From: a virus
Length of the DNA: 23,654 nucleotides
Virus record (IMG/VR): IMGVR_UViG_3300027704_000161
Span: 1-23,654 of that record
Strand: one strand, 5' to 3'
Of this stretch, positions 6,228 through 23,341 are shown piece by piece (positions within the stretch are counted from its first letter, which is position 1; each line of letters starts with the position of its first letter). The notes below the pieces were generated by a model. It had not been told where the DNA came from. It searched no databases and worked only from the letters and a program-made list of their open reading frames with translations. A program made the translations under genes and the position numbers.

Positions 6228-6234
6228 GGTTAGA

Positions 6235-6445: not shown

Positions 6446-6453
6446 CACTTTAT

Positions 6454-6615
6454 TTAGTTTCTTTTAAAAGTATTTAAAAGAATGTTCAGTTCGATAATTC
6501 CAAACTCGCAACCTTTGATTCGGTCGTTATCACCACACAATATGTTGGCTTCCAGTGCTTTTTTTAAGTCAGCAATTTGGGCGTTAATGGTTGCTTCGAT
6601 GTTTGTAATATTCAT
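6454..6615 (-). CDS. Small hypothetical protein (minus strand)
   Basis: A 53-residue, mainly helical protein beginning MNITNIEATINAQ and ending in a basic tail (FKRN), with two Cys (around residues 27 and 36). As in the neighbouring gene, the upstream part of the open frame is promoter and leader, so translation must begin at 6615. The function is not recognised. Confidence 0.6.
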   Translation of the reverse strand: MNITNIEATINAQIADLKKALEANILCGDNDRIKGCEFGIIELNILLNTFKRN

Positions 6616-6648
6616 TTTATTTATCTCTGTTTCGTTGAATGTGCGCCT

Positions 6649-6676
6649 ATTATAAGGCACCCGGTAAGCTTGTCAA
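6649..6676 (-). promoter_or_regulatory. Sigma70 promoter R2 with ACC-N-GGT spacer dyad
   Basis: Identical to promoter R1: TTGACA, the same 16-base spacer, TATAAT on the minus strand. It drives the gene at 6454-6615. Confidence 0.85.
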
Positions 6677-6725
6677 CACTTTTTCGCACCAAAATTTCGG
6701 GTTATGCTACACTTTTTCGCACCAA
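6676..6725. repeat. 17-bp direct repeat in the divergent intergenic region
   Basis: ACACTTTTTCGCACCAA occurs at 6676-6692 and 6709-6725, a 33-bp spacing (about three helical turns). The first copy abuts the -35 of promoter R2 and both lie upstream of the replication operon. It may be a protein-binding site; no binding protein can be named. Confidence 0.6.
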
Positions 6726-6775: not shown

Positions 6776-6798
6776 AAAAGTTAAAACTACCCATTATG
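6776..6798 (+). promoter_or_regulatory. Predicted phage RNA polymerase promoter (replication operon)
   Basis: GTTAAAACTACCCATTAT (6780-6797) also occurs at 21511 and 21651, in each case in non-coding DNA ahead of a transcribed region. The element resembles T7-class promoters in length, in the central AC-TAC-CCA versus ACGACTCA, and in the AT-rich element before a purine start. This copy reads TATG instead of TATAG at the start point. It lies 31 bp before the first gene of the replication operon. Assignment to the RNA polymerase encoded at 19320 is inferred. Confidence 0.65.
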
Positions 6799-6828
6799 AT
6801 CAACAACCAAAAACACAGAGGCCAGAAA

Positions 6829-6963
6829 ATGACACCCACAGAATTCCGAGCACTATTACTAGATTACGACTCCGACAGCAGAACCCAAAAAGCCCGCGTT
6901 GAAGGCATACTTCGCAGACAACCTACGTTGATGGCTGTTTATTTGGCTGTTATCCATGCGTGA
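6829..6963 (+). CDS. Small hypothetical leader gene of replication operon
   Basis: A 44-residue helical, charged protein (MTPTEFRALLLDYDSDS...). The frame runs further upstream, but the ATG at 6829 is preferred because AGAGG lies close upstream; an in-frame ATG at 6796 overlaps the predicted phage promoter. The stop overlaps the primase-helicase start by 8 bases, so it is probably translationally coupled. The function is unknown. Confidence 0.55.
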   Translation: MTPTEFRALLLDYDSDSRTQKARVEGILRRQPTLMAVYLAVIHA

Positions 6964-8608: not shown

Positions 8609-8610
8609 AA

Positions 8611-8763
8611 ATGAAAGCACTATTGTACGTGTTGCTTTTTCCGACTATGGTTATAGTGGGGCTTTTGGCGACTTGTTGGTCTGCAATCTGTCTGCCGGTC
8701 CAAGCGTCAAAGGCTACAATAAAAATGATAGATAAACTTACAAGCGAGGTGGATACACTATGA
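8611..8763 (+). CDS. Small single-pass membrane protein
   Basis: A 50-residue peptide beginning MKALLYVLLFPTMVIVG, with one long hydrophobic segment (about residues 3-30) containing two Cys, followed by a charged tail. It has a strong ribosome binding site (GGAGGA) directly after the helicase stop, and its TGA overlaps the next ATG (ATGA). Its place in a tight operon supports it being real. The function is unknown. Confidence 0.7.
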   Translation: MKALLYVLLFPTMVIVGLLATCWSAICLPVQASKATIKMIDKLTSEVDTL

Positions 8764-9062
8764 CCGATATACAAGACTTTATTGGATCTATTGATGAGGA
8801 GGAAAGAACCGCAGCATTTGGGCGGATGTTAAACGCGGGCGCCATGGTTAACCTTGACGAGGCTATCATTGCCACGCTAGAAGCCCTTTCAGACGGTGGC
8901 GAGTATACAGGCACCGATTATATGATTGACCCCTATGCGGTCTTAGATGGCGTCAATACCCTATTCCGGGGGCTTGATATGAACCCGCTAGAAAGTGAAG
9001 CTTATAAGATATTGCAAGACTGTTGCGACTGTATGGAAATAGAGGACGAGGGCAAACCATGA
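8760..9062 (+). CDS. Acidic hypothetical protein in replication operon
   Basis: A 100-residue strongly acidic, helical protein that I do not recognise. It is linked to both neighbours by 4-base ATGA overlaps. The C-terminus carries CCDC followed by an acidic tail. Acidic proteins of this kind sometimes act as nucleic-acid mimics or as partners of replication proteins, but there is no motif to support a specific role. Confidence 0.7.
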   Translation: MTDIQDFIGSIDEEERTAAFGRMLNAGAMVNLDEAIIATLEALSDGGEYTGTDYMIDPYAVLDGVNTLFRGLDMNPLESEAYKILQDCCDCMEIEDEGKP

Positions 9063-9391
9063 GCGTATTAGATGAAGCTACGCCCGCAGAGTGGGACGCG
9101 GCAACCAAAAAGACCCTAGAAAATATTTACGGGGTAAACGAAGAGAAAGTTAAATACTGCCGAGACTTTGGGGAAACCCGAAAGACTCAGGTAGGCGGTA
9201 CGCATTACATTAAAGAAGGCGGTATTCAGCCAATAGAATTTATCACATCAAACGAAATCCCTTTTAGAGAGGCCAACGTCATTAAATACGTGTTCCGACA
9301 CACCAACAAAAACGGCGTAGAAGACTTGCTAAAAGCTAGAGATTATATTGATATGATAATAAACGATTATAAAACTAAACAGGAGAAATAA
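9059..9391 (+). CDS. DUF3310 protein (T7 gp1.7-like region)
   Basis: A 110-residue protein. Residues about 42-105 match the DUF3310 pattern: GGTHYIKEGGIQPIEFI, then NVIKYVFRH, then DLLKARDYIDMII. T7 gp1.7, a nucleotide kinase, carries a related domain, so a role in nucleotide metabolism is plausible. The start at 9059 (ATGA overlap with the preceding stop) is preferred over the upstream in-frame codon at 9023, which lies deep in the previous gene. It is followed by AGGAGA and the SSB gene. Confidence 0.85.
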   Translation: MSVLDEATPAEWDAATKKTLENIYGVNEEKVKYCRDFGETRKTQVGGTHYIKEGGIQPIEFITSNEIPFREANVIKYVFRHTNKNGVEDLLKARDYIDMIINDYKTKQEK

Positions 9392-9394
9392 AGA

Positions 9395-9883
9395 ATGATC
9401 TTAAAAAATGTTGAAATTATGTGGGCACACCTTGAACCAGAAAACCCAGATGGAGGTTTTGATAAAGCAACCCCACAATGGAACCTGCAAGCTATTACTA
9501 GAGACAAGTCACAAGCCGAAGAGTGGAAGGCAGCAGGACTCACCCCAAAGCCTGACAGTGACGACACCGGTTTAATGTTCAAGATTAACGTCAAAAAGCT
9601 ATGCGAGCAGAAAAACGGCCAGCCTAATAAGCCCGTCCCCGTTGTAGGTAGGGATATAATGCCAATTGAAGACGTTTCAATTATTGGTAATGGCTCTGTG
9701 GGTAACGTGAAAGTCCGAACTTTTGACTACGATTTTAACGGTCGCCAAGGCGTAGGCGTTCGATTGGAGTCGGTGCAAATTACAAAGCTGGTCGAATACA
9801 AAGCAGCAGGCAGCGCAATTCTTGAAGGCTTTGATGCGTTTGATGCTGACGACACTAGCACAGACGACTGCGATGCTTATTGA
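9395..9883 (+). CDS. Single-stranded DNA-binding protein, T7 gp2.5-like
   Basis: A 162-residue protein with an OB-fold-like beta pattern (NVEIMWAHLEPEN..., VGRDIMPIEDVSIIGNGS) and an acidic C-terminal tail (FDAFDADDTSTDDCDAY). In gp2.5 an acidic tail ending in an aromatic residue contacts the polymerase and helicase; here the last residue is Tyr rather than Phe. The position between DUF3310 and DNA polymerase, and the length, fit phage SSBs. It should coat lagging-strand DNA and coordinate the replisome. Confidence 0.85.
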   Translation: MILKNVEIMWAHLEPENPDGGFDKATPQWNLQAITRDKSQAEEWKAAGLTPKPDSDDTGLMFKINVKKLCEQKNGQPNKPVPVVGRDIMPIEDVSIIGNGSVGNVKVRTFDYDFNGRQGVGVRLESVQITKLVEYKAAGSAILEGFDAFDADDTSTDDCDAY

Positions 9884-9950
9884 TATTGTGTTTATGATCG
9901 TGGGGGCCGTGCTGGTCTCCGTGTTTATCGACAGCCAAAACTACAAATAA
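9873..9950 (+). CDS. Possible 25-residue membrane peptide
   Basis: A short frame overlapping the end of the SSB gene by 11 bases and encoding MLIDIVFMIVGAVLVSVFID plus five polar residues. It is almost wholly one transmembrane segment. It fills the gap before the DNA polymerase gene. Evidence is limited to hydrophobicity and the overlap arrangement. Confidence 0.4.
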   Translation: MLIDIVFMIVGAVLVSVFIDSQNYK

Positions 9951-9968
9951 AACTAAAAGAGGTCTTTT

Positions 9969-11819
9969 ATGAAACCATTAAAGGTAATATTCGACGCAGA
10001 AACCAACGGTTTAAACCCAGACGTTATCTGGATGATTGCTACAGAAGACCTTGACGGAGATAAAGGCTTCTTTACTGATTACGAGGACGGCTACCCCTCT
10101 ATCTCTGAGGGGCTGGCTTACCTCAGCTTGGCTGATGTACTTATAGGCCACAATATAATTTCTTATGATTTACCCGTATTAAAAAAGCTTTGCAACTGGC
10201 AGCCTGCCAAATCTCAAAAGCTGGTAGATACAATGCTACTCTCACAGATGAACGATTTCGAGCGCCCACAGTTCGACCATCTAGTGAAGAATAAGTTTGC
10301 TGGCAAGCATAACATGAAGGTATGGAGTCAATTTTTAGGAGGTGAAGAGAAGCACGAAGATCCTAGCTGGCTGGAGTATTCCATTGAAATGCGGGAGCGC
10401 TGTATCTCTGACGTATCAATTAACGTAAAAATGTACCGCTATATGATGCAAGAAATCAAAGCGATTGTTGCAGCCTCCCCCAACTACGGCCAAGCTATAA
10501 AGCTAGAACATGATCTGGCGCTGGCAATGGCAGATCAGGAGGCTAACGGCTGGCTAATTGACACGGTAGCAGCTAAGAAACTTTTGGCTTATATTGAAGT
10601 CGAGATGTCCAAAATAGAGCTTGAAGTTGAGCCACTGCTAAAGCCTCAAAAGGTGTATCTTGACAAAGAACCCCGAGAAGCCAAGCGCCTTTTAAGTGGT
10701 GCTTGGGATAGAGTCACCCGCGACTGGTTCGGAGACCGTGAAGTTGTCAGCCCTTATCAGCGTTTTCGAATTGTAGATATGAAGCTCGGCAATAACGAAG
10801 CGGTCATTAATCTACTGTTGGAAAACGGGTGGGTGCCGACCGAGTGGAATTGGGGACGCACTGAGGAAGGTAAGTTTTTCAAGAAGTCCCCCAAGCTTAC
10901 CGAAGACAGCTACGACAGTATCAAAGGTGACCTAGGAAAATCCGTGGCACACTGGCGGGTCTTACGATCCCGTAGGGGCTTTATCACTGGTATCTTTAAG
11001 AACATACGTGAAGACGGCCACCTGTCGTGTAGGGCGTTTACAGTGGGTACAAATACCTACCGTTGTCGCCATGCTGGCATTGTTAACGTTCCCGGCGCCT
11101 ATGCTGTCTTAGGTAAAGAGATTCGAAGCTTATTCCACTCGGCGGCGGGTCGCTCAATTGTAGCGGCTGACTCTGACGGCAACCAGCTCCGCGGGATGGC
11201 TCATTATGTGAATAACCCCGAGGTGAGCAAGGCTATTGTCAGTGGCTCAAACGATGACGGTACAGACATCCATACACGCACAGCGAACATTGTAGGCGTT
11301 TCGCGGCCTGTAGTTAAAAACCTGACTTATGCCCTAATCTTTGGCGCTGGTGATAATAAACTAGGCGAAACCGCAGGCATGAAAGGGGACGGCCCAGCGT
11401 TACGGGCGAAGATGGAAAGCGCTTACGAGGGACTAAAGCCCGCCATTGATAATCTAAAATATCAGTGGATGGTCAACCGCCACACTTTTAGCCGTGGGTT
11501 TATCTATGGCCTAGATGGTCGCCGGATATACTGTGAAGACCATAAAGCCTTTAACGCACTACTTCAGGGCTTCGAGGCGGTAACTTGCAAGGCTGCTTGT
11601 GTTGAAGCTGTAAGGATGATTAAGGCAGAAGGATTAGACGCCAAGGTCATAGCGTTTTACCACGATGAAATCAACTGTGACGTCGCAGACAAGGATACTC
11701 AGCGGGTTGGAGAGATCCTGGAGTACTGTTTAGGCCCGTATGTAACCGAAAAATATAACTTGAATATCGCCATGGGTGGCACGGCTCAGGTCGGAAATTC
11801 TTGGTACGATGTTCACTAA
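9969..11819 (+). CDS. DNA polymerase, family A (T7 gp5-like)
   Basis: A 616-residue replicative polymerase. The N-terminal 3'-5' exonuclease has FDAET (Asp9, Glu11), the second motif IGHNIISYDLP, and the third in CISDV. The polymerase domain has motif A VAADSDGNQLRGMAH (Asp401), motif B RPVVKNLTYALIFGAGD (Arg446, Lys450, Tyr454) and motif C YHDEINCDV (His565, Asp566, Glu567). Tyr454 matches T7 Tyr526. At the position of the steric-gate Glu (T7 Glu480, E. coli Glu710) this protein has Gln406. Length is somewhat below T7 gp5 (704). It is preceded by a ribosome site in AGAGGTC and sits between the SSB and MazG-like genes. Confidence 0.96.
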   Translation: MKPLKVIFDAETNGLNPDVIWMIATEDLDGDKGFFTDYEDGYPSISEGLAYLSLADVLIGHNIISYDLPVLKKLCNWQPAKSQKLVDTMLLSQMNDFERPQFDHLVKNKFAGKHNMKVWSQFLGGEEKHEDPSWLEYSIEMRERCISDVSINVKMYRYMMQEIKAIVAASPNYGQAIKLEHDLALAMADQEANGWLIDTVAAKKLLAYIEVEMSKIELEVEPLLKPQKVYLDKEPREAKRLLSGAWDRVTRDWFGDREVVSPYQRFRIVDMKLGNNEAVINLLLENGWVPTEWNWGRTEEGKFFKKSPKLTEDSYDSIKGDLGKSVAHWRVLRSRRGFITGIFKNIREDGHLSCRAFTVGTNTYRCRHAGIVNVPGAYAVLGKEIRSLFHSAAGRSIVAADSDGNQLRGMAHYVNNPEVSKAIVSGSNDDGTDIHTRTANIVGVSRPVVKNLTYALIFGAGDNKLGETAGMKGDGPALRAKMESAYEGLKPAIDNLKYQWMVNRHTFSRGFIYGLDGRRIYCEDHKAFNALLQGFEAVTCKAACVEAVRMIKAEGLDAKVIAFYHDEINCDVADKDTQRVGEILEYCLGPYVTEKYNLNIAMGGTAQVGNSWYDVH

Positions 11820-11836
11820 CCAAATAGGGGAATAAT

Positions 11837-12151
11837 ATGAATTTTGAAGCAGTAGAGGAAAAAGTAATTGCGTGGCACTACGCTCGAAACCTTATTGACG
11901 GCAGCAGCGACATCCAGCAATTCGAAGGGAAGCTGTTAGAAGAGGTTGAAGAGTTGCGTATGGAAATTCAGTTTGCACAAAGCCCAGTAGATTCCATAGG
12001 GGACATAATGGTTGTGCTATGTAACATTGCCACCCGCAACGGCCTAACGCTTACAGAGTGCCTTAGCCACGCCTATGGAGACATCCAGCACCGCAAAGGC
12101 CGCATGGAAAATGGCGTATTCGTTAAAGAACTTGTTGATCAATCTAAATAG
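11837..12151 (+). CDS. MazG-like nucleotide pyrophosphohydrolase
   Basis: A 104-residue all-helical protein with the MazG signature: KLLEEVEELRMEI (Glu35, Glu36, Glu39) and, one helix later, VDSIGDIMVVL (Asp52, Asp56). In the canonical motif a Glu precedes the final Asp by three residues; here the matching site is Ser53, as in a known phage MazG-like subgroup. The family hydrolyses NTPs or ppGpp-type alarmones, which in phages may adjust host nucleotide pools. AGGGG lies 6-10 bases ahead of the start. Confidence 0.85.
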   Translation: MNFEAVEEKVIAWHYARNLIDGSSDIQQFEGKLLEEVEELRMEIQFAQSPVDSIGDIMVVLCNIATRNGLTLTECLSHAYGDIQHRKGRMENGVFVKELVDQSK

Positions 12152-12162
12152 GAGAAACCCAA

Positions 12163-12384
12163 ATGCAAAAACCATATATAGTTTTAAGCCAATACCCTTA
12201 TGAGTGTGAAATTGGCAGTTCACCCGATATTAGCGTCACCCACGTTTTGCATGAGAGAGATGCATCACTCCCCGAGATGCTAGAATTTTGTGAGACGTTC
12301 ATTAGAGCTTGTGGGTGGACTCTTGACGGATCTCTTATCGTTCAAACAGAAGAAGAGGCGCCCCCACATGCACGTACTCATTGA
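12163..12384 (+). CDS. Small hypothetical protein before exonuclease
   Basis: A 73-residue acidic protein with a strong ribosome binding site (AGGAGA). The final 17 bases overlap the exonuclease start. It has an alternating beta/alpha pattern and several Cys. It is not recognised, but its fixed place between MazG-like and exonuclease genes and the tight overlap support a real gene. Confidence 0.7.
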   Translation: MQKPYIVLSQYPYECEIGSSPDISVTHVLHERDASLPEMLEFCETFIRACGWTLDGSLIVQTEEEAPPHARTH

Positions 12385-13132
12385 TGGCGACGTTGTTCTT
12401 TATCTGGCTCTCTGGCGAAATGAAACGGCAACGCTAGAGTCTGCTATTAACCACTACAACGATATTATCGAAGATACAAAGGACGCCTGTTTTGCGGATA
12501 CTGTAGAAATCTTTTTATCGTCTGACGGGGAGAACTTCAGGAAAAACCTGTACCCCGTTTATAAATCCAACCGAAAGGGCAAAGAATCCCCGCCGTTTAT
12601 GTCGGAGCTAAAAGCCGCGGTGTTAACGTGGGACAATTCCCGAGGATCTCCCGGAGGGGAAGCCGATGATTATTTGCTAATTCGGGCGGCAGAGCTAGAC
12701 GAGCAAGGGAAGCCGTGGATTATTGCCACGGTGGATAAAGATTTAAAAACCTATCCGGGCTTATTCTACAACCTCAGAAGCCACCAAATCGACAAGGTTG
12801 GCGAAAGACGAGCGTATACTTTCATGATGCAACAGTTTGTTATGGGCGACAGTGTAGACGGCATCAAAGGCCTCAACGGCTGGGGGCCGGTCAAAACTGC
12901 TGGCATTATTAACCCGTACCATGGATTAGAGGAGAATTTTAAAAAGACCAAGGAGGTTTGGATTGAAAACAACAAAACCGATAACACGCAAGCGGCGTAC
13001 AACGAAACCGCCAATCTTGCTTTCATTAGACGTAATAAAAACGACCTGTACCCATTGGACTTTTGGGCAATGTCTGGAGACGACTTTAGAAAAACCCTAC
13101 GGGTTTCTGTATCGGATTACGCGAGTAGCTGA
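12368..13132 (+). CDS. 5'-3' exonuclease, FEN-like (T7 gp6-like)
   Basis: A 254-residue nuclease. Metal-binding residues are seen in LIDGDV (Asp6, Asp8), GGEADDY (Glu98, Asp100, Asp101), VDKDLK (Asp123, Asp125) and GDSVDGIKG (Asp161, Asp164), followed by a helix-hairpin-helix-like GWGPVKTAG. In T7 such an enzyme degrades host DNA and removes RNA primers. The start at 12368 is chosen because MHVLIDGD is the expected beginning; the upstream extension lies inside the preceding gene. At 254 residues it is shorter than T7 gp6 (300), and its last 170 bases are overlapped by the next gene in another frame. Confidence 0.92.
   Translation: MHVLIDGDVVLYLALWRNETATLESAINHYNDIIEDTKDACFADTVEIFLSSDGENFRKNLYPVYKSNRKGKESPPFMSELKAAVLTWDNSRGSPGGEADDYLLIRAAELDEQGKPWIIATVDKDLKTYPGLFYNLRSHQIDKVGERRAYTFMMQQFVMGDSVDGIKGLNGWGPVKTAGIINPYHGLEENFKKTKEVWIENNKTDNTQAAYNETANLAFIRRNKNDLYPLDFWAMSGDDFRKTLRVSVSDYASS
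12950..12956 (+). promoter_or_regulatory. Shine-Dalgarno site inside exonuclease gene
   Basis: AAGGAGG ends 6 bases before the TTG at 12963. It decides the start of the overlapping GIY-YIG gene and is stronger than most ribosome sites in the window. Confidence 0.8.
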
Positions 13133-13484
13133 CGGCAAGGACTACATCGGCCAGAAAAGCTTTCACACAAAAAGCAACCCATGGCCCTACTATATGAGTA
13201 GCTCGAAAGGTCTCAAGGCCGAGATAGAAGCGGCAGGGCCAAATTATGCTAACCTGTTTAGCTTTGATGTGCTGATGCTTTGCGGCGACCGTAATAGCCT
13301 ATCTTTAGCTGAGACAACTTTGCAGATATTCGAAGACGTTATTCACAACCCCAACAACTTCAACAAATCCATAGCTGGCCAAAAGTTTCTTGGCCCCACA
13401 AAGCACACTCCAGAGACCCGCCAAAAGATTTCAGCGGCACTTTCTGGGGCGCATGATGGCCAGCATTATCCCCATTTTAAATAG
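12963..13484 (+). CDS. GIY-YIG homing-type endonuclease overlapping exonuclease (TTG start)
   Basis: A 173-residue protein. Residues 46-67 hold a GIY-YIG-type signature: YGFLYRIT, then DYIG at 60-63, then QKSF. The C-terminus has a NUMOD3-like DNA-binding motif (HTPETRQKISAALSG). The first 56 codons overlap the exonuclease gene in a different frame. The start is TTG at 12963, placed 6 bases after a perfect AAGGAGG; the only other in-frame start-type codons lack a ribosome site. Such genes are typically free-standing mobile nucleases. The GIY half of the motif lies inside the overlap, so the overlap is needed for activity. Confidence 0.82.
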   Translation: MKTTKPITRKRRTTKPPILLSLDVIKTTCTHWTFGQCLETTLEKPYGFLYRITRVADGKDYIGQKSFHTKSNPWPYYMSSSKGLKAEIEAAGPNYANLFSFDVLMLCGDRNSLSLAETTLQIFEDVIHNPNNFNKSIAGQKFLGPTKHTPETRQKISAALSGAHDGQHYPHFK

Positions 13485-13495
13485 AGGTATAAAAT

Positions 13496-13786
13496 ATGAG
13501 ACCAAATAACAACAAATATATTGGCCAGAAATTTGGTGACCTACTTATCTTGAACTGGTTTCGCACCGGTGACAGCCAGCACCTGCACTTTTTGGCACAG
13601 TGTGGTTGTGGCGTAGAAACCACTGTAAGAAAATCAGATGTACTACGAGCACACACCACCCGCTGTGGTTATTGCTCAAAAACTGCTAAAAAGAATATCC
13701 GTTCAAGGATCTCGGAATACGTAGAAGTATTTTTTGAAAAACCTGGCGTAGAATTCTTTGCACAATCTAACGCAAAATCTAATTAA
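13496..13786 (+). CDS. Zinc-ribbon DNA-binding-like protein
   Basis: A 96-residue protein resembling the N-terminal module of many phage HNH/AP2 homing nucleases: a KYIGQKFGDLLILN strand pair, then a zinc knuckle CGCG (Cys36, Cys38) and CGYC (Cys57, Cys60) separated by KSDVLRAHTTR. No HNH or AP2 catalytic part follows, so it may be a remnant or a free DNA-binding protein. It sits 11 bases after the GIY-YIG gene with AGAGG upstream. The two together look like a mobile insertion between exonuclease and reductase. Confidence 0.72.
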   Translation: MRPNNNKYIGQKFGDLLILNWFRTGDSQHLHFLAQCGCGVETTVRKSDVLRAHTTRCGYCSKTAKKNIRSRISEYVEVFFEKPGVEFFAQSNAKSN

Positions 13787-15791: not shown

Positions 15792-15825
15792 ACGGGAGGC
15801 CTTCGGGTCTTCCGTATTTTTTTTT
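15792..15825 (+). terminator. Strong intrinsic terminator of the replication operon
   Basis: ACGGGAGGCC - TTCG - GGTCTTCCGT forms a 10-bp stem (two G-U pairs) with a UUCG tetraloop, followed by ATTTTTTTTT. It separates the replication operon from the cassette region. Confidence 0.95.
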
Positions 15826-15836
15826 CGATTTAGGGG

Positions 15837-15865
15837 TTGACAAGGTTACCGGGTGCCCTTAAAAT
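15837..15865 (+). promoter_or_regulatory. Sigma70 promoter, cassette 1
   Basis: TTGACA (15837-15842), 17-base spacer AGGTTACCGGGTGCCCT, TAAAAT (15860-15865). The leader resembles that of the next cassette (CATATTAACCAAACAGAGAA). Confidence 0.9.
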
Positions 15866-15897
15866 AGGCGCATATTAACCAAACAGAGAAAAAGATT

Positions 15898-16146
15898 ATG
15901 AATTACTCAACTGAACTAAACATTGGCGATCTCGTTACAGTAGAAGGCCTATCAGGGACTGAAATGGAATACGTTAAAACTTTTACTGTAAAATCTGTAG
16001 GAGTTGACCGAATTAATTTTACTACCGGACATCGCCTTGATTGTTCAGGAGAGCTAGGTAATAACGGCGCTAACCTGTACACCAAGACCAATAAAAGAGT
16101 TGCACGATATGCAAGCTGGACTTGTGGCGAGCTGGAAGGTGAATAA
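15898..16146 (+). CDS. Cassette 1 hypothetical protein (beta-barrel-like)
   Basis: An 82-residue protein beginning MNYSTELNIGDLVTVEGL, with regular short strands and a GDLV turn typical of small SH3- or KOW-like barrels. It has two or three Cys and no membrane segment. It is the first gene behind a consensus promoter, which implies early expression by host polymerase. No family is recognised. Confidence 0.65.
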   Translation: MNYSTELNIGDLVTVEGLSGTEMEYVKTFTVKSVGVDRINFTTGHRLDCSGELGNNGANLYTKTNKRVARYASWTCGELEGE

Positions 16147-16324
16147 ACTATTACGTAACCTAGCGATCAGGTGGGACGCTAGAAGGCGGCAGGCGTCTAT
16201 CAAGACCCTTCAGCGTATGATAGACTCCATTGAAGCCGACAACCGGGACAACCTCAGAACCATAGAGGCCATTAAAAACCAAATGTATTACGTTGACGGT
16301 AACCAGCCCGACCTACTCGACTAA
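16109..16324 (+). CDS. Cassette 1 basic helical hypothetical protein
   Basis: A 71-residue protein with a basic N-terminal half (RNLAIRWDARRRQASIK) and a helical, coiled-coil-like middle. It overlaps the previous gene. Start choice is uncertain: ATG at 16109 follows AAGAG, a GTG at 16139 gives a shorter protein with an 8-base overlap, and a TTG at 16100 is also possible. A nucleic-acid-binding role is conceivable from charge only. Confidence 0.55.
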   Translation: MQAGLVASWKVNKLLRNLAIRWDARRRQASIKTLQRMIDSIEADNRDNLRTIEAIKNQMYYVDGNQPDLLD

Positions 16325-16339
16325 ACCACGGAGAACCCC

Positions 16340-16714
16340 ATGATTTTTATTCACGCCCCAGCAGAATTAAAAGAATACGCCTACAGAGTCGCCGACCACC
16401 TCGGCCTTGACAGCTACGGGGAGACAGATGTATTCATTGAATACGAGGTACTCGGGGACATTGACGGGGCTATCTATGGAGACCATGAGAGCGCCTGTAT
16501 TGAGCTAAACGAGGGCAGCAGCTTAACCGACAAGCTCAAAGCCCTCGCCCATGAAATGATTCACGCCCAGCAGCTTTTTAGGGGCGACCTAAGTTATATC
16601 AAGGCTGATATGTATTGGAAAGGCGAGAAGATGACAGAAGTGCCGTACTTTGAGCAGGGCCACGAAGTCGAAGCGTTTAAGCTAGAAAAAGAAATATACG
16701 AAATGTGCAAATAA
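16340..16714 (+). CDS. HExxH zinc metallopeptidase-like protein
   Basis: A 124-residue protein with HEMIH at residues 71-75 (KALAHEMIHAQQLF) and, about 35 residues on, HEVEAF, which can supply the third metal ligand as in gluzincin-type peptidases. The N-terminal half is a beta/alpha region typical of SprT/M78-like small peptidases. It is the last gene of cassette 1, preceded by GGAG and followed by the next promoter. As an early phage protein it may cleave a host regulatory or defence protein; the target is unknown. Confidence 0.75.
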   Translation: MIFIHAPAELKEYAYRVADHLGLDSYGETDVFIEYEVLGDIDGAIYGDHESACIELNEGSSLTDKLKALAHEMIHAQQLFRGDLSYIKADMYWKGEKMTEVPYFEQGHEVEAFKLEKEIYEMCK

Positions 16715-16717
16715 GTG

Positions 16718-16746
16718 TTGACAGGGTTACCGGGTTCTATTAAAAT
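16718..16746 (+). promoter_or_regulatory. Sigma70 promoter, cassette 2
   Basis: TTGACA, 17-base spacer GGGTTACCGGGTTCTAT, TAAAAT. It belongs to the weaker -10 class of the set. Confidence 0.9.
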
Positions 16747-16778
16747 AGGCCCATATTAACCAAACAGAGAAAAAGAAA

Positions 16779-16976
16779 ATGACTAACTCAGAAATTAACA
16801 ACCTTCAAAACATCGTAATGGGCTATTCTTATAATGAGCAACTAATCAACAACGCCATTGTTTTAGCGGATACTTTCGAAGTTAAGCACCTTCTAATTGC
16901 GTTAAAATCTGGCCGCAACTCTTTTGAATCCCGTATGGTCTTACAATCTTTTATTTGCAGGTTACAACAAAAATAA
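16779..16976 (+). CDS. Cassette 2 small helical protein
   Basis: A 65-residue all-helical protein beginning MTNSEINNLQNIVMGY. The leader GAGAAAAAGAAA serves as ribosome site. It is the only gene of its cassette; the next promoter begins 12 bases after the stop with no terminator hairpin between. Unknown family. Confidence 0.65.
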   Translation: MTNSEINNLQNIVMGYSYNEQLINNAIVLADTFEVKHLLIALKSGRNSFESRMVLQSFICRLQQK

Positions 16977-16988
16977 TTGAAATAAGTG

Positions 16989-17017
16989 TTGACAGGGTTA
17001 CCGGGTGCCCCTATAAT
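16989..17017 (+). promoter_or_regulatory. Sigma70 promoter, cassette 3 (perfect consensus)
   Basis: TTGACA, 17-base spacer GGGTTACCGGGTGCCCC, TATAAT: both hexamers and the spacing are ideal. Confidence 0.95.
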
Positions 17018-17066
17018 AGCACCATCAAGACGAGAAAGACCCTAACCAACTAAAGAGAGAAAGATA

Positions 17067-17390
17067 ATGTACAATTTTACTCAAAACGAAAAACTCGCCG
17101 CTCTGCACCTTGTTGATCAGTGCCTCGACGGCATGTGTGGTGATCGTCCAATGGATTTAGAGAGTGACCCGTATACTTGGTGCCATGTTGATGTACTTAT
17201 TTCGCAAGGTTGGAGCAAGCATGCGGCCGCAGGAACTTACGGTGCTTTAGCTGAGAAAGAGGCACTTTATATAGAAAAGGATGTCAATTATCACGACGGT
17301 GCATGGACAGACATCATATCTCACGACCTTTATGAATGGGCCGAGAGTCACTGGGATGAGTTTGTAGCCAACGGAAAACCTAAGAAGTAA
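17067..17390 (+). CDS. Cassette 3 hypothetical protein
   Basis: A 107-residue acidic protein rich in Trp and His (YTWCHVDVLISQGWSKHAA..., YEWAESHWDEF). It has a winged-helix-like pattern around HAAAGTYGALAEKEALY, which might be a small helix-turn-helix. It is single in its cassette, with GAGAGAAAGATA upstream and a UNCG hairpin terminator after. No family is recognised with confidence. Confidence 0.7.
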   Translation: MYNFTQNEKLAALHLVDQCLDGMCGDRPMDLESDPYTWCHVDVLISQGWSKHAAAGTYGALAEKEALYIEKDVNYHDGAWTDIISHDLYEWAESHWDEFVANGKPKK

Positions 17391-17399
17391 AACACCAAC

Positions 17400-17424
17400 G
17401 GCCCTCCGGGGCCAAAGTTATTTT
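17400..17424 (+). terminator. Cassette 3 UNCG-hairpin terminator
   Basis: GGCCC-TCCG-GGGCC followed by AAAGTTATTTT. The C(UNCG)G loop makes a very stable short hairpin; the U-tract is weak. The same unit recurs after cassettes 4, 5 and 6. Confidence 0.7.
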
Positions 17425-17444
17425 AAAAATAAATGAAATAAGTG

Positions 17445-17473
17445 TTGACAGGGTTACCGGGTTCTATTAAAAT
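17445..17473 (+). promoter_or_regulatory. Sigma70 promoter, cassette 4
   Basis: TTGACA, 17-base spacer GGGTTACCGGGTTCTAT, TAAAAT. Confidence 0.9.
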
Positions 17474-17520
17474 AGCACCATCAAGACGAGAAACACTAAC
17501 TAAATACAGGAATGCAGACG

Positions 17521-17721
17521 ATGATGGGATTAACTACTAAAAAATGGCATGACCACTATTCTGTTAGGATTACTGACTATCCTACTCTCGGATATGAGGT
17601 ATTTAAGCGTAAAGACGGCTGGCATGTAGTGTCCGAGTGTACTGGAGAACCTGCTTTCTATGTCTCTGTTTTTCCAACTAAGCGACAAGCCTATAACGCA
17701 ATTATCGACCACAACAATTAG
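17521..17721 (+). CDS. Cassette 4 small hypothetical protein
   Basis: A 66-residue protein with a beta-rich core (YSVRITDYPTLGYEVFKRKDGWHVV). ATG at 17521 lies 9 bases after AGGA (17508-17511); the frame's first ATG at 17512 abuts that site and is less likely. The leader differs from the others after AAACACTAACTAAATACAGG. An AGGAGAG motif after the stop is followed by no usable start, perhaps a relic of a lost second gene. Confidence 0.65.
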   Translation: MMGLTTKKWHDHYSVRITDYPTLGYEVFKRKDGWHVVSECTGEPAFYVSVFPTKRQAYNAIIDHNN

Positions 17722-17764
17722 GAGAGTAGATATTGCACTAGCTGAAGATATAAAGAACACCCAC

Positions 17765-17789
17765 GGCCCTCCGGGGCCAAAGTTATTTT
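17765..17789 (+). terminator. Cassette 4 UNCG-hairpin terminator
   Basis: GGCCC-TCCG-GGGCC followed by AAAGTTATTTTG, identical to the cassette 3 unit. Confidence 0.7.
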
Positions 17790-17809
17790 GAAAATAAATG
17801 AAATAAGTG

Positions 17810-17838
17810 TTGACAGGGTTACCGGGTGCCCCTATAAT
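17810..17838 (+). promoter_or_regulatory. Sigma70 promoter, cassette 5 (perfect consensus)
   Basis: TTGACA, 17-base spacer GGGTTACCGGGTGCCCC, TATAAT. Promoter and leader are essentially the same as those of cassette 3. Confidence 0.95.
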
Positions 17839-17887
17839 AGCACCATCAAGACGAGAAAGACCCTAACCAACTAAAGAGAGAAAGATC

Positions 17888-18121
17888 ATGGAATTATTTA
17901 ACAACAAACGTGTGATGGCCAACATGAACAAAGCAATTAAAGTTATGGGTGTCGCTTCAGAGATGGCGGGTGTTGAGTGGAAGCAAGGCGACCGTTTTGG
18001 AATTAAAGACCTTCTGGCCATGTGGGTTAAATACCCGGAAGTTTTCCCCGAGCAGCTACAGGCCCAAATGCAAGAATTTTATGATTTGTTTTATGCCGAA
18101 GTTTTAAAACGAAATTCGTAA
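17888..18121 (+). CDS. Cassette 5 small helical protein
   Basis: A 77-residue helical protein (MELFNNKRVMANMNKAIKVM...), rich in Met and ending in a basic tail (LKRNS). It is the only gene in its cassette and is not recognised. Confidence 0.7.
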   Translation: MELFNNKRVMANMNKAIKVMGVASEMAGVEWKQGDRFGIKDLLAMWVKYPEVFPEQLQAQMQEFYDLFYAEVLKRNS

Positions 18122-18131
18122 AAACACCAAC

Positions 18132-18156
18132 GGCCCTACGGGGCCAAAGTTATTTT
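18132..18156 (+). terminator. Cassette 5 UNCG-hairpin terminator
   Basis: GGCCC-TACG-GGGCC followed by AAAGTTATTTTG. The loop differs from the other copies (TACG rather than TCCG) but remains a UNCG tetraloop, which suggests selection on the RNA hairpin. Confidence 0.72.
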
Positions 18157-18176
18157 GAAAATAATTGAAATAAGTG

Positions 18177-18205
18177 TTGACAGGGTTACCGGGTTCTATT
18201 AAAAT
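18177..18205 (+). promoter_or_regulatory. Sigma70 promoter, cassette 6
   Basis: TTGACA, 17-base spacer GGGTTACCGGGTTCTAT, TAAAAT. Confidence 0.9.
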
Positions 18206-18254
18206 AGCACCATCAAGACGAGAAAGACCCTAACCAACTAAAGAGATAAAGATT

Positions 18255-18518
18255 ATGACTAACTTAAACGCCGCAACCCTCGCCAACATCACTGAAGCCA
18301 CTGACGTAAACGACCACAACAGCGCTTTAGCAATCCTAGCCTACGCCCTTAATAACGAGTGGATGATCACTGAAATTACCAACCTGGACAACGCACACCT
18401 AGATTTAGGTTACATGACGGAAGAAATGATGAATGACCGCCGCCTTATTGCTCGCAGCTTGATGGATTGCGCCCGCCTCGCTTATTCTAACTTTGACGAA
18501 ATCGAAGCAGCATTTTAA
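18255..18518 (+). CDS. Cassette 6 acidic helical protein
   Basis: An 87-residue acidic, Asn- and Asp-rich helical protein (MTNLNAATLANITEATDVND...). It is single in its cassette behind the shared leader (GAGATAAAGATT before the ATG). No family is recognised. Confidence 0.7.
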   Translation: MTNLNAATLANITEATDVNDHNSALAILAYALNNEWMITEITNLDNAHLDLGYMTEEMMNDRRLIARSLMDCARLAYSNFDEIEAAF

Positions 18519-18529
18519 GAAACACCAAC

Positions 18530-18554
18530 GGCCCTCCGGGGCCAAAGTTATTTT
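18530..18554 (+). terminator. Cassette 6 UNCG-hairpin terminator
   Basis: GGCCC-TCCG-GGGCC followed by AAAGTTATTTTG. Confidence 0.7.
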
Positions 18555-18574
18555 GAAAATAATTGAAATAAGTG

Positions 18575-18603
18575 TTGACAGGGTTACCGGGTTCTATTAA
18601 AAT
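18575..18603 (+). promoter_or_regulatory. Sigma70 promoter, cassette 7
   Basis: TTGACA, 17-base spacer GGGTTACCGGGTTCTAT, TAAAAT. Confidence 0.9.
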
Positions 18604-18652
18604 AGCACCATCAAGACGAGAAAGACCCTAATCAACTAAAGAGATAAAGATT

Positions 18653-18859
18653 ATGAACACTAAGCAAATCGAAACACTAAAAGCAGCATGGGCCGGATTT
18701 CAAAGCACTGAAATGTCACAAATCACAAAAGCTTACAACTTCATTAAAAGCCTTCCACAAGCTTGGATCATAGTAGTAAGCGAAGCCGAAATTGATTTCC
18801 TAAGTGACGTCGCAATTGAAGCAATCAACGAAATGAAAGAAGATGGGGAGTGGTTGTAA
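18653..18859 (+). CDS. Cassette 7 first small protein
   Basis: A 68-residue helical protein (MNTKQIETLKAAWAGFQS...). The last codons contain GGGGAG, which serves as ribosome site for the next gene starting 1 base after this stop. Unknown family. Confidence 0.7.
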   Translation: MNTKQIETLKAAWAGFQSTEMSQITKAYNFIKSLPQAWIIVVSEAEIDFLSDVAIEAINEMKEDGEWL

Positions 18860-18860
18860 A

Positions 18861-19064
18861 ATGCACGGAATACGCGAAGCAATCATCCGAGACCTATCAG
18901 ACAGCGATCTAAACGAATTGCTGACTGATCTGGATGTATCCCCCTACGATTACCATGAAGCCCGCAAAGAGGCCGACAGGCGCTCTCAGGCTCCCCCAGG
19001 AGTTAAGACGGCAAAACCCCGCTTTTCTTATGCAACTAACACTTTAACCGGAAAAGATTTTTAA
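18861..19064 (+). CDS. Cassette 7 second small protein
   Basis: A 67-residue protein with a helical N-terminus (MHGIREAIIRDLSDSDLNEL) and a basic, proline-containing C-terminal part. The upstream in-frame ATG at 18843 lies inside the previous gene; ATG at 18861 is preferred because it directly follows that stop and lies 10 bases after GGGGAG. Function unknown. Confidence 0.65.
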   Translation: MHGIREAIIRDLSDSDLNELLTDLDVSPYDYHEARKEADRRSQAPPGVKTAKPRFSYATNTLTGKDF

Positions 19065-19072
19065 TTTAGGGG

Positions 19073-19101
19073 TTGACAATGTTACCCGGTGCCCCCATAA
19101 T
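19073..19101 (+). promoter_or_regulatory. Sigma70 promoter of the RNA polymerase gene
   Basis: TTGACA, 17-base spacer ATGTTACCCGGTGCCCC, CATAAT. It is the divergent member of the set: the spacer reads ACCCGGT instead of ACCGGGT, which keeps the ACC-N-GGT dyad but swaps the central base, and the -10 is weaker. Confidence 0.85.
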
Positions 19102-19156
19102 AGTAGCAGCGAGAAAAATTTCCAAAAAAAAACTACAGAGAGAAAAACCATGAATA

Positions 19157-19319: not shown

Positions 19320-21449
19320 ATGAAAAATGTAATGGATGAGTTGCTGGAAGTGATCGAGGCTACCGACTATAAAAGCCGGGGTTACCGATGCTTCACTAGA
19401 AAGCTAGTATTTTCCGCTATTAAAGAAGACCTGCTTGAAGACATCCTAGAAAAGCTCTTTTCCTCTCTGGTTAGCTCTGACGTCGCCGAGGTGCCCGCTA
19501 CTGCGATGGCCCGCAGGCTCACTACACGTATGGCGAATGGATTAGGCGTGGATCTGGTAGGCACCAAGGGCATCATTAAGACGGGTATAGAAATTCTGGA
19601 TTGGTTCGCGAAGGTCGGAGTGGTGAAGGCTATTAAACGTGAACAAATCGAGGAAAAGGGCAGCAAATTAGTTAAGAAAGAAAGCTGGTTTATCGAGATA
19701 CTTGTCGAAACCGAGGGAACCGAAAAGGATATATACTGCGACCCCCGCAAACCCTTTAGGCCTTGGACAACGCCAACCCGCTTTGAGAATGGGGTTTTGG
19801 TGCCATTGGTTAAACGTGCGGATCAAGTGAATATGCTACACCACTACACCTTTGAGCAGATCCCGCTGATGTATAGGGCAATCAACCGCCTTGGCGCTAC
19901 AGCGTGGGAAATCAACAGTGACTTGCTGGCATACGCTAACATTATCGACGAAACTAACTCACCATTAGGCGCACTGGCGACCCCTGAGAGCCTTAGCGCC
20001 GCTTATCGTGCCCTCGGTAACGAAAAGGCATCAAAGTCCCGTAGGAAGGCAGCAGCGAAGACTATCGGACTACATGAGAAGCGCAGCGTCTTTAACACTA
20101 TCCACGATTTAGCCATTGAGTACCTCGGCCACGAATTGCATTTCACACACAACTTTTGTGGAAGGGGTCGCCAATACGCCCTAGCGCCCCACCTAAGCCC
20201 GCAGGGTGCCGATATTGCCAAGGCGTTGCTAGTGCTCAAAGATAAGGTGCCACTAGTCGAAACTGATTTTTGGATACACTTGGCAAACTGCGCTGGCGAA
20301 GACAAGCTAACTTTTGATGATCGGGTTAAATGGGTCGATGATAACATTGAGACCTTGAGAGCCATTGGGGTTGATCCTGTAGGCAACTATGATCTTATTG
20401 AGTGCCTCGGGGTTCACCGGGAAAAGAAGACGTATTATCAGTTTATTGCTTGCTGCCAGGATCTGGCAAAGTATCTAGCATATGACGGCGTTTTTCTGAC
20501 GGGGATCATGTTGGGCCTCGATAGCACTTCCTCGGGTAACCAAATCCTGGCAATGATCGCCAAGGATGACGAGGTTGCAGAGTACGTCAATATATCAGCT
20601 ACTCCAGACGGTAAACCCGGCGACCTCTATAGGTACGTTGGTAAGTTTGTGCAGCAAGGTTTAAAAGGTCTTACACTCGACAGCATCCCTTTGAAGCTTC
20701 AGCAATACGCCAACCTTGACGCTATCGCCGATTTGGCTAATCTCCCCGAAGGCCACAAAGGGTTTCGCAAGATCACAAAGCGCATTTGCATGGTGTTACC
20801 GTACAGCGGTACACGATACGGGTCAGGCGAGATTACTAAAACCGACCAAATGGATCACGGCATACCCGAGATGGAGGCGTTAAACTTTGCGGATTGTTCT
20901 GTGGTGGGTGGCTTGATCTATGATAAATGCGTAGAGTCTGCAAAGAAGTCTATGGGGATACTGGCGTATCTTAGGGACGGTGTGGACTTTGCGGAAGAGG
21001 GGCCAATGCTTTCTTGGGTGATCCCCCAGACTAACTTCAGAGCCTTTCAGGTCAAAGAAAAGACATACGAGGAGACAATTACAGGCGTTATAGGCGGGGA
21101 GTCACTAGGGCTAAAGGTACACATTCCAACAGGCGAGCCAAACAAAGCAGGCCACAAAAACAGTATTGCACCGGGCATTGTGCATAGTTTAGATGCGGCC
21201 ATGCTTACTATGATAGTCAATGGGATACCCGAGGAGCTACCAGTTGCAGCCATACACGATCAATTCTGTGTGCCTATGGGTCACATGGCAGAACTAGTCA
21301 ACTCAGCGAGGGACGCGTATGCCGCAATTGCTTGCAGAGATAACTTCGAAACCCTTTGTGAATCGGCGTTTAACGTGAAGCGCCCATTACCACCCTCAGG
21401 CCGTTGGGATGTGTCGGAGCTGGCAAGCACTGATTACTTTATCTGCTAA
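19320..21449 (+). CDS. Single-subunit DNA-dependent RNA polymerase, T7-like
   Basis: A 709-residue polymerase. Recognised T7 elements in order: CGRGRQYALAPHLSPQGADIA (T7 RGRVY region), motif A GLDSTSSGNQ (catalytic Asp401, T7 Asp537), the O helix TKRICMVLPYSGTRYG (Lys487, Arg488, Tyr495; T7 Lys631, Arg632, Tyr639), the HKNSIAPGIVHSLDAAML element, and motif C IHDQF (His646, Asp647; T7 Asp812). The C-terminus (LPPSGRWDVSELASTDYF) resembles the T7 end, so the gene is complete. It is 174 residues shorter than T7 RNAP (883), mostly in the N-terminal domain. It is expressed from the sigma70 promoter at 19073 and should read the promoters at 6776, 21507 and 21647. Confidence 0.96.
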   Translation: MKNVMDELLEVIEATDYKSRGYRCFTRKLVFSAIKEDLLEDILEKLFSSLVSSDVAEVPATAMARRLTTRMANGLGVDLVGTKGIIKTGIEILDWFAKVGVVKAIKREQIEEKGSKLVKKESWFIEILVETEGTEKDIYCDPRKPFRPWTTPTRFENGVLVPLVKRADQVNMLHHYTFEQIPLMYRAINRLGATAWEINSDLLAYANIIDETNSPLGALATPESLSAAYRALGNEKASKSRRKAAAKTIGLHEKRSVFNTIHDLAIEYLGHELHFTHNFCGRGRQYALAPHLSPQGADIAKALLVLKDKVPLVETDFWIHLANCAGEDKLTFDDRVKWVDDNIETLRAIGVDPVGNYDLIECLGVHREKKTYYQFIACCQDLAKYLAYDGVFLTGIMLGLDSTSSGNQILAMIAKDDEVAEYVNISATPDGKPGDLYRYVGKFVQQGLKGLTLDSIPLKLQQYANLDAIADLANLPEGHKGFRKITKRICMVLPYSGTRYGSGEITKTDQMDHGIPEMEALNFADCSVVGGLIYDKCVESAKKSMGILAYLRDGVDFAEEGPMLSWVIPQTNFRAFQVKEKTYEETITGVIGGESLGLKVHIPTGEPNKAGHKNSIAPGIVHSLDAAMLTMIVNGIPEELPVAAIHDQFCVPMGHMAELVNSARDAYAAIACRDNFETLCESAFNVKRPLPPSGRWDVSELASTDYFIC

Positions 21450-21506: not shown

Positions 21507-21530
21507 AAAAGTTAAAACTACCCATTATAG
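21507..21530 (+). promoter_or_regulatory. Predicted phage RNA polymerase promoter A
   Basis: GTTAAAACTACCCATTATAG with AGAAGAGA downstream, close in layout to the T7 consensus end CGACTCACTATAGGGAGA. The predicted start is G21530. It is followed 140 bp later by a second copy. There is no sigma70-like -35/-10 pair here. Confidence 0.78.
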
Positions 21531-21646: not shown

Positions 21647-21670
21647 AAAAGTTAAAACTACCCATTATAG
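21647..21670 (+). promoter_or_regulatory. Predicted phage RNA polymerase promoter B
   Basis: Identical to promoter A over the core GTTAAAACTACCCATTATAG, with AGAAGAAT downstream. The predicted start is G21670, placing the hammerhead motif about 40 bases into the transcript. Confidence 0.78.
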
Positions 21671-22113: not shown

Positions 22114-22136
22114 ATAAAAGATAATTGAAATAAGTG

Positions 22137-22164
22137 TTGACAGGGTTACCGGGTGTGATAAGAT
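22137..22164 (+). promoter_or_regulatory. Sigma70 promoter, last cassette (weak -10)
   Basis: TTGACA, then GGGTTACCGGGTGTGA, then TAAGAT (16-base spacer), the best -10 found. The AATTGAAATAAGTG block before the -35 and the ACC-G-GGT dyad match the cassette array. The leader ACATTCAACGAAACAAGAGA resembles the minus-strand leaders at 6382 and 6613. Confidence 0.75.
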
Positions 22165-22198
22165 AACCCCACATTCAACGAAACAAGAGATAAAGATT

Positions 22199-22396
22199 AT
22201 GAACAACTTACTTTTAAATATCGTTACTGAGCAAGCCGAGCGCATGATGAGCCGCAAAGGTGTTGTTGATTATAAAGCCATTGAAGCCTTAGTAGCTTTC
22301 CACGGAACTATGCGAAGTGCTAACGCAGAAGAGAAAGCCGCGGTGTTATGGGAGATTGGCAGCAGCTACCCTTGTAAAGTAGGTGAGCCTGTATAG
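22199..22396 (+). CDS. Last-cassette small helical protein
   Basis: A 65-residue helical protein (MNNLLLNIVTEQAERMMSRK...), with GAGATAAAGATT before the ATG as in cassettes 6 and 7. It is single in its unit, with a hairpin terminator after. Unknown family. Confidence 0.7.
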   Translation: MNNLLLNIVTEQAERMMSRKGVVDYKAIEALVAFHGTMRSANAEEKAAVLWEIGSSYPCKVGEPV

Positions 22397-22513: not shown

Positions 22514-22533
22514 TTTGAAAAGGAGATTAAGTG

Positions 22534-22914
22534 ATGAGTGAAATACTGCGAAACATGATGCGCACACCTGATGGCACAATGCTGCATTCAGTCCATCGAC
22601 ACGACTTCAGAGAACATCAAGACGCTAACGGTAAAGTTTACATGTTGGATGGTGGTCTTGATTATGTTAGACATTCTGCCCACGGTGACGAAGATATGTT
22701 TACTCTTATGTCAGACGATAGCCATGAAGTTATTAGGGAAGTAGTAACGTGGGGAACATACGGCAGAGAAGGGGACCAGCTTATTACGCACGTTAAAATT
22801 GTTGATATGGACACAGAGCATTTACAAGCCTGTATAGATGGGATGAGGCGCTACCCACGACCAGCCATGTACAAAGTAATGCAAGATGAACTGGATTATC
22901 GAAGAGAGGGCTAA
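22534..22914 (+). CDS. Conserved-type phage hypothetical protein
   Basis: A 126-residue protein (MSEILRNMMRTPDGTMLHSV...), with HDFREHQDANGKVYMLDGG, a pattern I associate with phage proteins of unknown function. It is His- and Asp-rich with alternating strands. AGGAG (22521-22525) is 8 bases before ATG 22534; a GTG at 22531 in the same frame is possible. No catalytic motif is seen. Confidence 0.72.
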   Translation: MSEILRNMMRTPDGTMLHSVHRHDFREHQDANGKVYMLDGGLDYVRHSAHGDEDMFTLMSDDSHEVIREVVTWGTYGREGDQLITHVKIVDMDTEHLQACIDGMRRYPRPAMYKVMQDELDYRREG

Positions 22915-22933
22915 ATTAATAGGGGTGTTTCGT

Positions 22934-23341
22934 ATGATTTACAAATGCTCCAGATGTACAGAACCAGCAACAGTAGGCACCTTATGTGCCAAGCATACAG
23001 CCACCATGGCACTAGATGGGAAGCCACGCTACAGGGGCGCCCATAACCGCAACTTCTACGGTTCTGCTAGGTGGCGAGGTCTTAGGGAGCTGGTGCTATC
23101 ACAACAGCCCTTATGTGCCTGTTGTAACCATTACGGCACCACTAGGCCAGCAGCAGAGGTTGACCACATCTACCCTATCAGCCACAGCCCACAGCTATTA
23201 GCTACCCTTTCTAACATGCAAGGCTTATGCAAGGGGTGCCACAGTAGAAAGACCCAGCACGAGAAGCGGGGCGTGGTGTATGACTACCTGAAGCTAATCA
23301 TCATTGACCTCAATACTGGGGCTGTAACAACACTTAAATAA
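22934..23341 (+). CDS. HNH endonuclease
   Basis: A 135-residue nuclease. An N-terminal zinc-knuckle-like pair (YKCSRCTEPA, GTLCAKH) is followed by a basic linker and the HNH core: CACCNH, then AEVDHIYPIS (metal-binding His), then NMQGLCKGCHSRKT. The architecture matches the small phage HNH proteins often found beside terminase genes, where they assist DNA packaging; free-standing homing nucleases also look like this. The start at 22934 follows AGGGG; the frame extends to 22886 inside the previous gene, but that part lacks the domain. It is followed by a strong ribosome site for the next gene. Confidence 0.88.
   Translation: MIYKCSRCTEPATVGTLCAKHTATMALDGKPRYRGAHNRNFYGSARWRGLRELVLSQQPLCACCNHYGTTRPAAEVDHIYPISHSPQLLATLSNMQGLCKGCHSRKTQHEKRGVVYDYLKLIIIDLNTGAVTTLK

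Follow-up and report, generated by a model that had tools for sequence, protein, structure and literature searches.

Interchangeable small genes behind near-identical promoter blocks in a marine phage with a T7-type RNA polymerase: probable relatives of the T4-type promoter–stem-loop cassettes

Introduction

How do small genes that bear no resemblance to one another come to stand in a row, each behind nearly the same promoter? This question is raised by a stretch of viral DNA of 23,654 bp (IMG/VR virus record IMGVR_UViG_3300027704_000161, here called the window), in which positions 15837-19101, between a ribonucleotide reductase operon and the gene for a T7-type RNA polymerase, hold an array of control blocks with promoter, leader and in some cases a hairpin, followed by short open reading frames (ORFs). 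A first-pass annotation, made from the nucleotides of the window, had proposed a plug-in system by which such genes are acquired through recombination between the blocks. Comparing the window with a relative that is about 98% identical (IMG/VR 3300031706_000027), we found genes gained, replaced and reordered at the blocks, together with chimeric blocks and cassette genes that recur in unrelated phages, all in line with that proposal. We consider it probable, at roughly 0.8 as judged from sequence, that the array is made up of mobile regulatory cassettes of the early promoter–stem-loop (PeSL) type, with genes being inserted, lost, replaced and moved at near-identical blocks.

Results

The window carries eleven control blocks in front of unrelated genes

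The pattern TTGACA-N16-18-TAWAAT had nine exact matches in the window, as compared with 0.05 expected from shuffled sequences, which confirmed that the near-identical promoter blocks are real. Seven matches lie on the forward strand (15837, 16718, 16989, 17445, 17810, 18177 and 18575) and two on the minus strand (6418-6445 and 6649-6676), and with two further copies having a variant -10 box (CATAAT at 19073 and TAAGAT at 22137) there are 11 blocks in all: eight forward blocks within 15837-19101, another forward block at 22137 and a minus-strand pair at 6.4-6.7 kb. The first-pass annotation had thus correctly placed the same control block at 22137 and on the minus strand and had recognized the promoter repeated over the forward units, but it counted seven of these where eight blocks are found, the eighth preceding the RNA polymerase gene. 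Each block resembles, by sequence, a strong sigma-70 promoter with a 16-17-bp spacer, TATAAT or TAAAAT and 10-12 of the 12 consensus bases. When aligned, the blocks share the core TTGACA-NNN-TTACCSGGT-(-10), of which the -35 box and TTACCSGGT are almost invariant, with two main -10 modules (GCCCYTAWAAT and TTCTATTAAAAT) and, confined to minus-strand blocks, a third (GCCTTATAAT). The leader believed to be common to the units is so in blocks 3-7, to which ACCATCAAGACGAGAAAGAC (type II, in a shorter form in block 4) is limited, but not elsewhere: blocks 1-2 have ATATTAACCAAACA (type I), block 9 and the minus-strand blocks have ACATTCAACGAAACA (type III) and block 8 has a leader of its own. In blocks 3-7 the repeat is up to 137 bp long at 74-99% identity, and exact repeats in the window measure 60-95 bp, none being longer than 95 bp.

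The units had been described as single-gene cassettes, which holds for units 2-6, but units 1 and 7 contain three and two ORFs, respectively. That their genes are unrelated was borne out, with phmmer giving self matches only among the cassette products and hhalign probabilities staying at or below 3.5%. These results bear on an origin by tandem duplication of a single unit, with the genes having since diverged past recognition. Such an origin would agree with the tandem layout and the near-identical blocks, but the products show no mutual similarity, the genes cannot be aligned even though the blocks are up to 99% identical, and relatives of several genes, at 67-88% amino acid identity, occur in unrelated phages, making duplication extremely improbable. 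Searches of the cassette products against Pfam and PHROGs gave no confident function, save for a metalloprotease-like ORF and phrog_6004 (function not known), and most products match no characterized family. AlphaFold models were of low confidence, with predicted local distance difference test (pLDDT) scores of 49 for the relative's 83-aa gene described below and 57 for c3. Coordinates of all features are collected in Table 1.

Table 1. Control blocks, cassette genes and other features of the window
Feature	Positions	Strand	Remarks
Hairpin closing minus array	6190-6236	-	UUCG; relative has extra gene C before hairpin
Cassette gene A	6235-6384	-	First in relative's minus array; C-terminus varies by position (...LVADAE vs ...LLKETK)
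Control block of gene A	6385-6459	-	Promoter 6445-6418
Cassette gene B	6454-6615	-	Second in relative's minus array, last codons differing there
Control block of gene B	6613-6690	-	Promoter 6676-6649
Gp2.5-like single-stranded DNA-binding/annealing protein	9395-9883	+	phrog_112, 6.7e-16; candidate recombination function
Phage exonuclease family protein	12365-13132	+	phrog_107, 8.6e-38; candidate recombination function
Canonical intrinsic terminator	15792-15826	+	Closes reductase operon ahead of array; 10-bp stem, loop of 4, T-run; -19.1 kcal/mol, z -3.9
Control block 1	15835-15897	+	Promoter 15837-15865; leader type I
Unit 1 ORFs	15898-16714	+	15898-16146, about 16112-16324, 16340-16714 (third HExxH metalloprotease-like, phrog_16532, 4.6e-12)
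Control block 2	16716-16778	+	Leader type I; -10 module TTCTATTAAAAT
Cassette gene c2	16779-16976	+	65 aa
Control block 3	16977-17066	+	Promoter 16989-17017; leader type II, holding left junction of c3 replacement
Cassette gene c3	17067-17390	+	107 aa; unrelated 58-aa gene in its place in relative
Control block 4	17391-17511	+	UCCG hairpin 17400-17413, holding right junction of c3 replacement; promoter 17445-17473
Cassette gene c4	17512-17721	+	69 aa
Control block 5	17757-17887	+	Hairpin 17765-17778; promoter 17810-17838; relative's copy has block-4-type promoter
Cassette gene c5	17888-18121	+	77 aa
Control block 6	18122-18254	+	UACG hairpin 18132-18145; promoter 18177-18205
Cassette gene c6	18255-18518	+	87 aa
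Control block 7	18519-18652	+	Hairpin 18530-18543; promoter 18575-18603; site of relative's extra gene and second block copy
Unit 7 ORFs	18653-19064	+	18653-18859 and 18861-19064
Control block 8	19071-19149	+	TTGACA...CATAAT 19073-19101; upstream of RNA polymerase gene
T7-type single-subunit RNA polymerase	19320-21449	+	phrog_414, 6e-90; PF00940, 9e-32
Control block 9	22118-22198	+	Promoter 22137-22164; leader type III ACATTCAACGAAACA
Cassette gene c9	22199-22396	+	65 aa; homologue in variable slot of second-group contig G013

Genes are replaced, inserted and reordered at the blocks

Outside four places the window and its relative are collinear, and over these about 18.4 kb all gaps but one, of 12 bp, are shorter than 9 bp. 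At the first place, c3 is swapped in the relative for an unrelated 58-aa gene (r3), with junctions inside the leader, after ...AAGACGAGAA, on the left and inside the hairpin stem on the right. At the second, an 83-aa gene (rX, matching phrog_6004) has been inserted together with its own block at block 7, such that the block of ~135 bp flanks it on both sides. The third place is the minus-strand array, which reads B, A in the window and A, B, C in the relative with the common tail AAAGAAACTAAATAAAGTGTTGACA, and because this repeat reaches into the coding tail, the last codons of A and B vary with position. Six of the eight junctions lie in blocks, which make up 6.0% of the compared sequence (nominal binomial P 1e-6); counted by event it is three of four (P 8e-4), which is the fairer figure because junctions within one event are not independent. 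Gain, loss and replacement of genes at the repeats were thus seen between close relatives, as known for PeSLs, rather than the same genes in the same order with breakpoints unrelated to the repeats.

Several points weigh against this reading or limit it. The fourth place, a 297-bp in-frame deletion in the relative near 22566-22858, within the ORF at 22531-22914 (127 aa), lies outside any block and is the sole large difference away from them. The collections searched hold two genotypes of this phage, the contigs that are 100% identical add no variation, and the event counts are accordingly small. The genomes are metagenome assemblies, and the hairpins of the array have no proper U-tract, which makes the terminator half of a PeSL doubtful.

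Metagenomic contigs having exact repeats of 60-95 bp could also in principle show differences in order and content that are assembly artefacts caused by those repeats. Misassembly of the arrays is nevertheless unlikely, with exact repeats of at most 95 bp and two further contigs agreeing with the window base for base (100% over 14,824 and 3,817 bases), and for the B/A order it is at most a slight possibility. Misassembling this genome could moreover not create the extra unique genes of the relative, and we regard artefacts as a very improbable source of the differences taken together. Movement by a site-specific enzyme or homing nuclease that recognizes the block is likewise highly unlikely. 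The window does have nuclease genes of homing and HNH types at 12963-13786 and a further HNH gene at 22886-23341, but they lie outside the array, and the junctions vary by event between leader, hairpin and coding tail, with no single fixed site.

The blocks are mosaics

If blocks recombine with each other, segments should be found in new combinations. In the four-combination test, all four combinations were present both for the base following the -35 box paired with the -10 module and for the -10 module paired with leader type I or II. Furthermore, blocks 4 and 5 of the relative (r4/r5) have one common promoter unlike both window counterparts, and its block 9 (r9) has the -10 segment of its minus block A (rA). 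As read from these sequences, the blocks are mosaics in which promoter segments have been exchanged between copies.

Cassette genes recur in a second, unrelated phage group

The genes c3 and c9, as well as r3 and C of the relative, all recur in a second phage group that is unrelated to the first, three of them in one variable slot. Located behind an HNH gene, this slot is empty in contig G008 and holds a c9 homologue in G013, c3 in L064/L065 and C in L072-L074. Gene C has 91.7% nucleotide identity over 289 bp with the latter contigs, the homology extending from the leader CATTCAACGAAAC to the hairpin, and c3 has 77% nucleotide and 79% amino acid identity with its counterparts, with DNA homology from 3 bp before the ATG to the hairpin. 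Relatives of the 58-aa gene, 67% identical to it, lie downstream of TTGACA promoters with the leader ACATTCAA in two further contigs. The second group has its own repeated block, TTGACA...GTAAMC...AGGCA...ATA...ACATTCAA, its terminase differs and is closest to those of HTVC111P-type pelagiphages, and beyond the cassette genes the two groups have only two proteins in common, which align along part of their length at about 48-55% identity. Relatives of the 83-aa gene occur in mycobacteriophages and in phages of Methylophilales, Vibrio, Leptospira and Escherichia. The second group is marine, and contigs L080/L081 (3300000116_000137) and L082 (3300020166_000329) show its repeated block, as TTGACA...GTAAAC...AGGCA...ACATTCAA, and its variable slot behind an HNH gene.

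With these results it was possible to weigh a further alternative, namely that the blocks are kept for shared regulation while illegitimate recombination strikes anywhere, selection retaining only exchanges between genes. Selection alone would predict intergenic junctions, the 297-bp deletion does lie away from the blocks, and the core promoter positions are conserved even with differing leaders. Against it, the junctions sit within sequence common to both partners, the rX insertion leaves a full block on each side, the homology of C and c3 to other phages stops in the leader or start and in the hairpin, the C-termini of A and B were exchanged along with the shared tail, and the other intergenic gaps over about 18 kb show neither gains nor losses. 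The chimeric blocks also speak against it, and we find this alternative rather unlikely compared with recombination at the blocks.

Promoters, hairpins and expression

Hairpins of UNCG type indeed precede blocks 4, 5, 6 and 7, as the first-pass annotation had it (z -2.4 to -3.0), but their designation as terminators is doubtful by sequence, the U-tract being weak and offset, and hairpins are absent from several blocks. Folding of the sequence around the -10 box into a stem-loop was dropped as an idea, its stability (z about -0.5 to -1.0) being no greater than in shuffled sequences. The conserved spacer was also rejected as a repressor operator: block rB of the relative lacks TTACCGGGT yet retains its -35 box, -10 box and leader, so the spacer is not essential there, and no regulator came to light.

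The T7-like promoter candidate TTAAAACTACCCATTATAG is present in both genotypes, with two copies just past the RNA polymerase gene (21512-21530 on the plus strand and 21652-21670) and a degenerate one ahead of the primase gene (6781-6799). Since the blocks are near the sigma-70 consensus, block 8 stands before the RNA polymerase gene and TTAAAACTACCCATTATAG lies downstream, the array is most likely an early region that the host polymerase transcribes, the remainder being left to the phage polymerase. Taken by itself, the location of these sigma-70 promoters directly ahead of the phage polymerase gene is no more than suggestive of early expression.

Genome context

Besides the reductase, the window encodes T7-like replication proteins (primase-helicase and DNA polymerase). 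One of the two identical contigs (L007, the 3,817-bp overlap) extends rightward into genes for terminase and HK97-type portal and capsid. In terms of its genes, the carrier of the array is thus not a T4-type phage but one that combines a T7-type RNA polymerase with head genes of the HK97 type. Its layout is mosaic, with T7-like replication and transcription genes at 6956-13132 and 19320-21449 of the window and terminase, portal and capsid genes of HK97 type at 5171-10164 of L007. The endonuclease genes at 12963-13786, of GIY-YIG/homing and HNH types, stand between the exonuclease and the reductase. Positions 1-2100 hold a long tract of 9-bp repeats that is probably a collagen-like (Gly-X-Y type) tail fibre segment and that runs off the record on the left, and the ORF at 2088-2945 has a DERLK-type segment resembling an S74 intramolecular chaperone and is probably the C-terminal portion of a tail fibre.

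A whole-window megablast against the phage collection gave 0 matches and hence no near relative, and scans for Rfam families and tRNAs in the window found nothing. The core promoter pattern was found, among viral and genome contigs, only in this phage group apart from isolated single matches taken as chance, and the available parts of distant reductase relatives (L021-L049) held no comparable block array.

Discussion

In the T7 early region, too, small genes close to the gene of a single-subunit RNA polymerase are transcribed from host promoters, but there a few clustered promoters give one long transcript, in contrast to the one near-identical promoter per gene seen here. Among T4-type phages, RB49 and phi1 were the original PeSL phages, and circles of excised units are known. 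RB49 belongs to Krischvirus, the genus of Escherichia phage MIZ6, and in a distant DNA search of the phage collection block 3 had 80% identity over 69 bp (E 4e-4) to an early promoter block of MIZ6 before a small hypothetical gene, with the leader also being matched in a Vibrio lentus phage. MIZ6 had four GTTGACA...ATCAAG sites as compared with none in the control. In MIZ6 (L083, OR192075.1), several minus-strand early promoter blocks of the form (A)GTTGACA...CATCRARACGAGA stand before small genes and resemble blocks 3-7.

PeSLs mediate gene shuffling in T4-like phages (PMC4503421); the founding papers, cited there and in PMC3950731, are Arbiol et al. 2010 (doi 10.1093/gbe/evq006) and Comeau et al. 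2014 (doi 10.1093/gbe/evu129). The likeness lies in short repeated cassettes that separate small genes, that carry an early sigma-70-like promoter together with (in some blocks here) a stem-loop, and at which genes are shuffled. The array differs in its carrier, in having mostly one gene per block in tandem before an RNA polymerase gene, in hairpins without a strong U-tract and in cassette genes shared with an unrelated group of small phages. We report it as a PeSL variant because the phage is not of T4 type and its hairpins are doubtful as terminators. In the haloarchaeal virus HGTV-1, a conserved promoter-like motif with an inverted repeat precedes many ORFs and was proposed by its authors to act like PeSLs (PMC3950731); that promoter is of archaeal TATA type and shuffling is suggested there by analogy. 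For the present array, by contrast, gain, replacement and reordering of genes were mapped by comparing genomes.

On this reading, the array would consist of interchangeable units of hairpin, sigma-70 promoter, leader and small gene, each probably read by the host RNA polymerase early in infection. Block 8 would start the gene of the phage RNA polymerase, whose own T7-like promoters would be those just after it and before the primase gene. Near-identical blocks may pair homologously, probably through strand annealing by the gp2.5-like protein together with the exonuclease, upon which a unit could enter, drop out, give way to another or change position without losing its regulation, and promoter segments could be exchanged between blocks. 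The genes presumed to come in are shared with other phages of that leader–hairpin layout, and they might be of benefit against the host, as the first-pass annotation had supposed.

Taking these genes further, we tentatively suggest, at somewhat less than even odds, that a common pool of small early genes and one control layout (promoter, CATTCAA or CATCAAGACGAGA leader, UNCG hairpin) may extend across marine phages that are unrelated but share their waters and perhaps their host, any cassette being pluggable into any of them and the T4-type PeSLs forming one branch. The comparison gives a base-resolution view of small early genes being traded as ready-to-express units in natural marine phages, outside the T4-type phages where the idea arose. 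If the pool is indeed shared by unrelated phages, the blocks would offer an easy way, by sequence, to find accessory genes, among them possibly anti-defence ones, and the spread of 'ORFan' early genes among phages would become directly testable.

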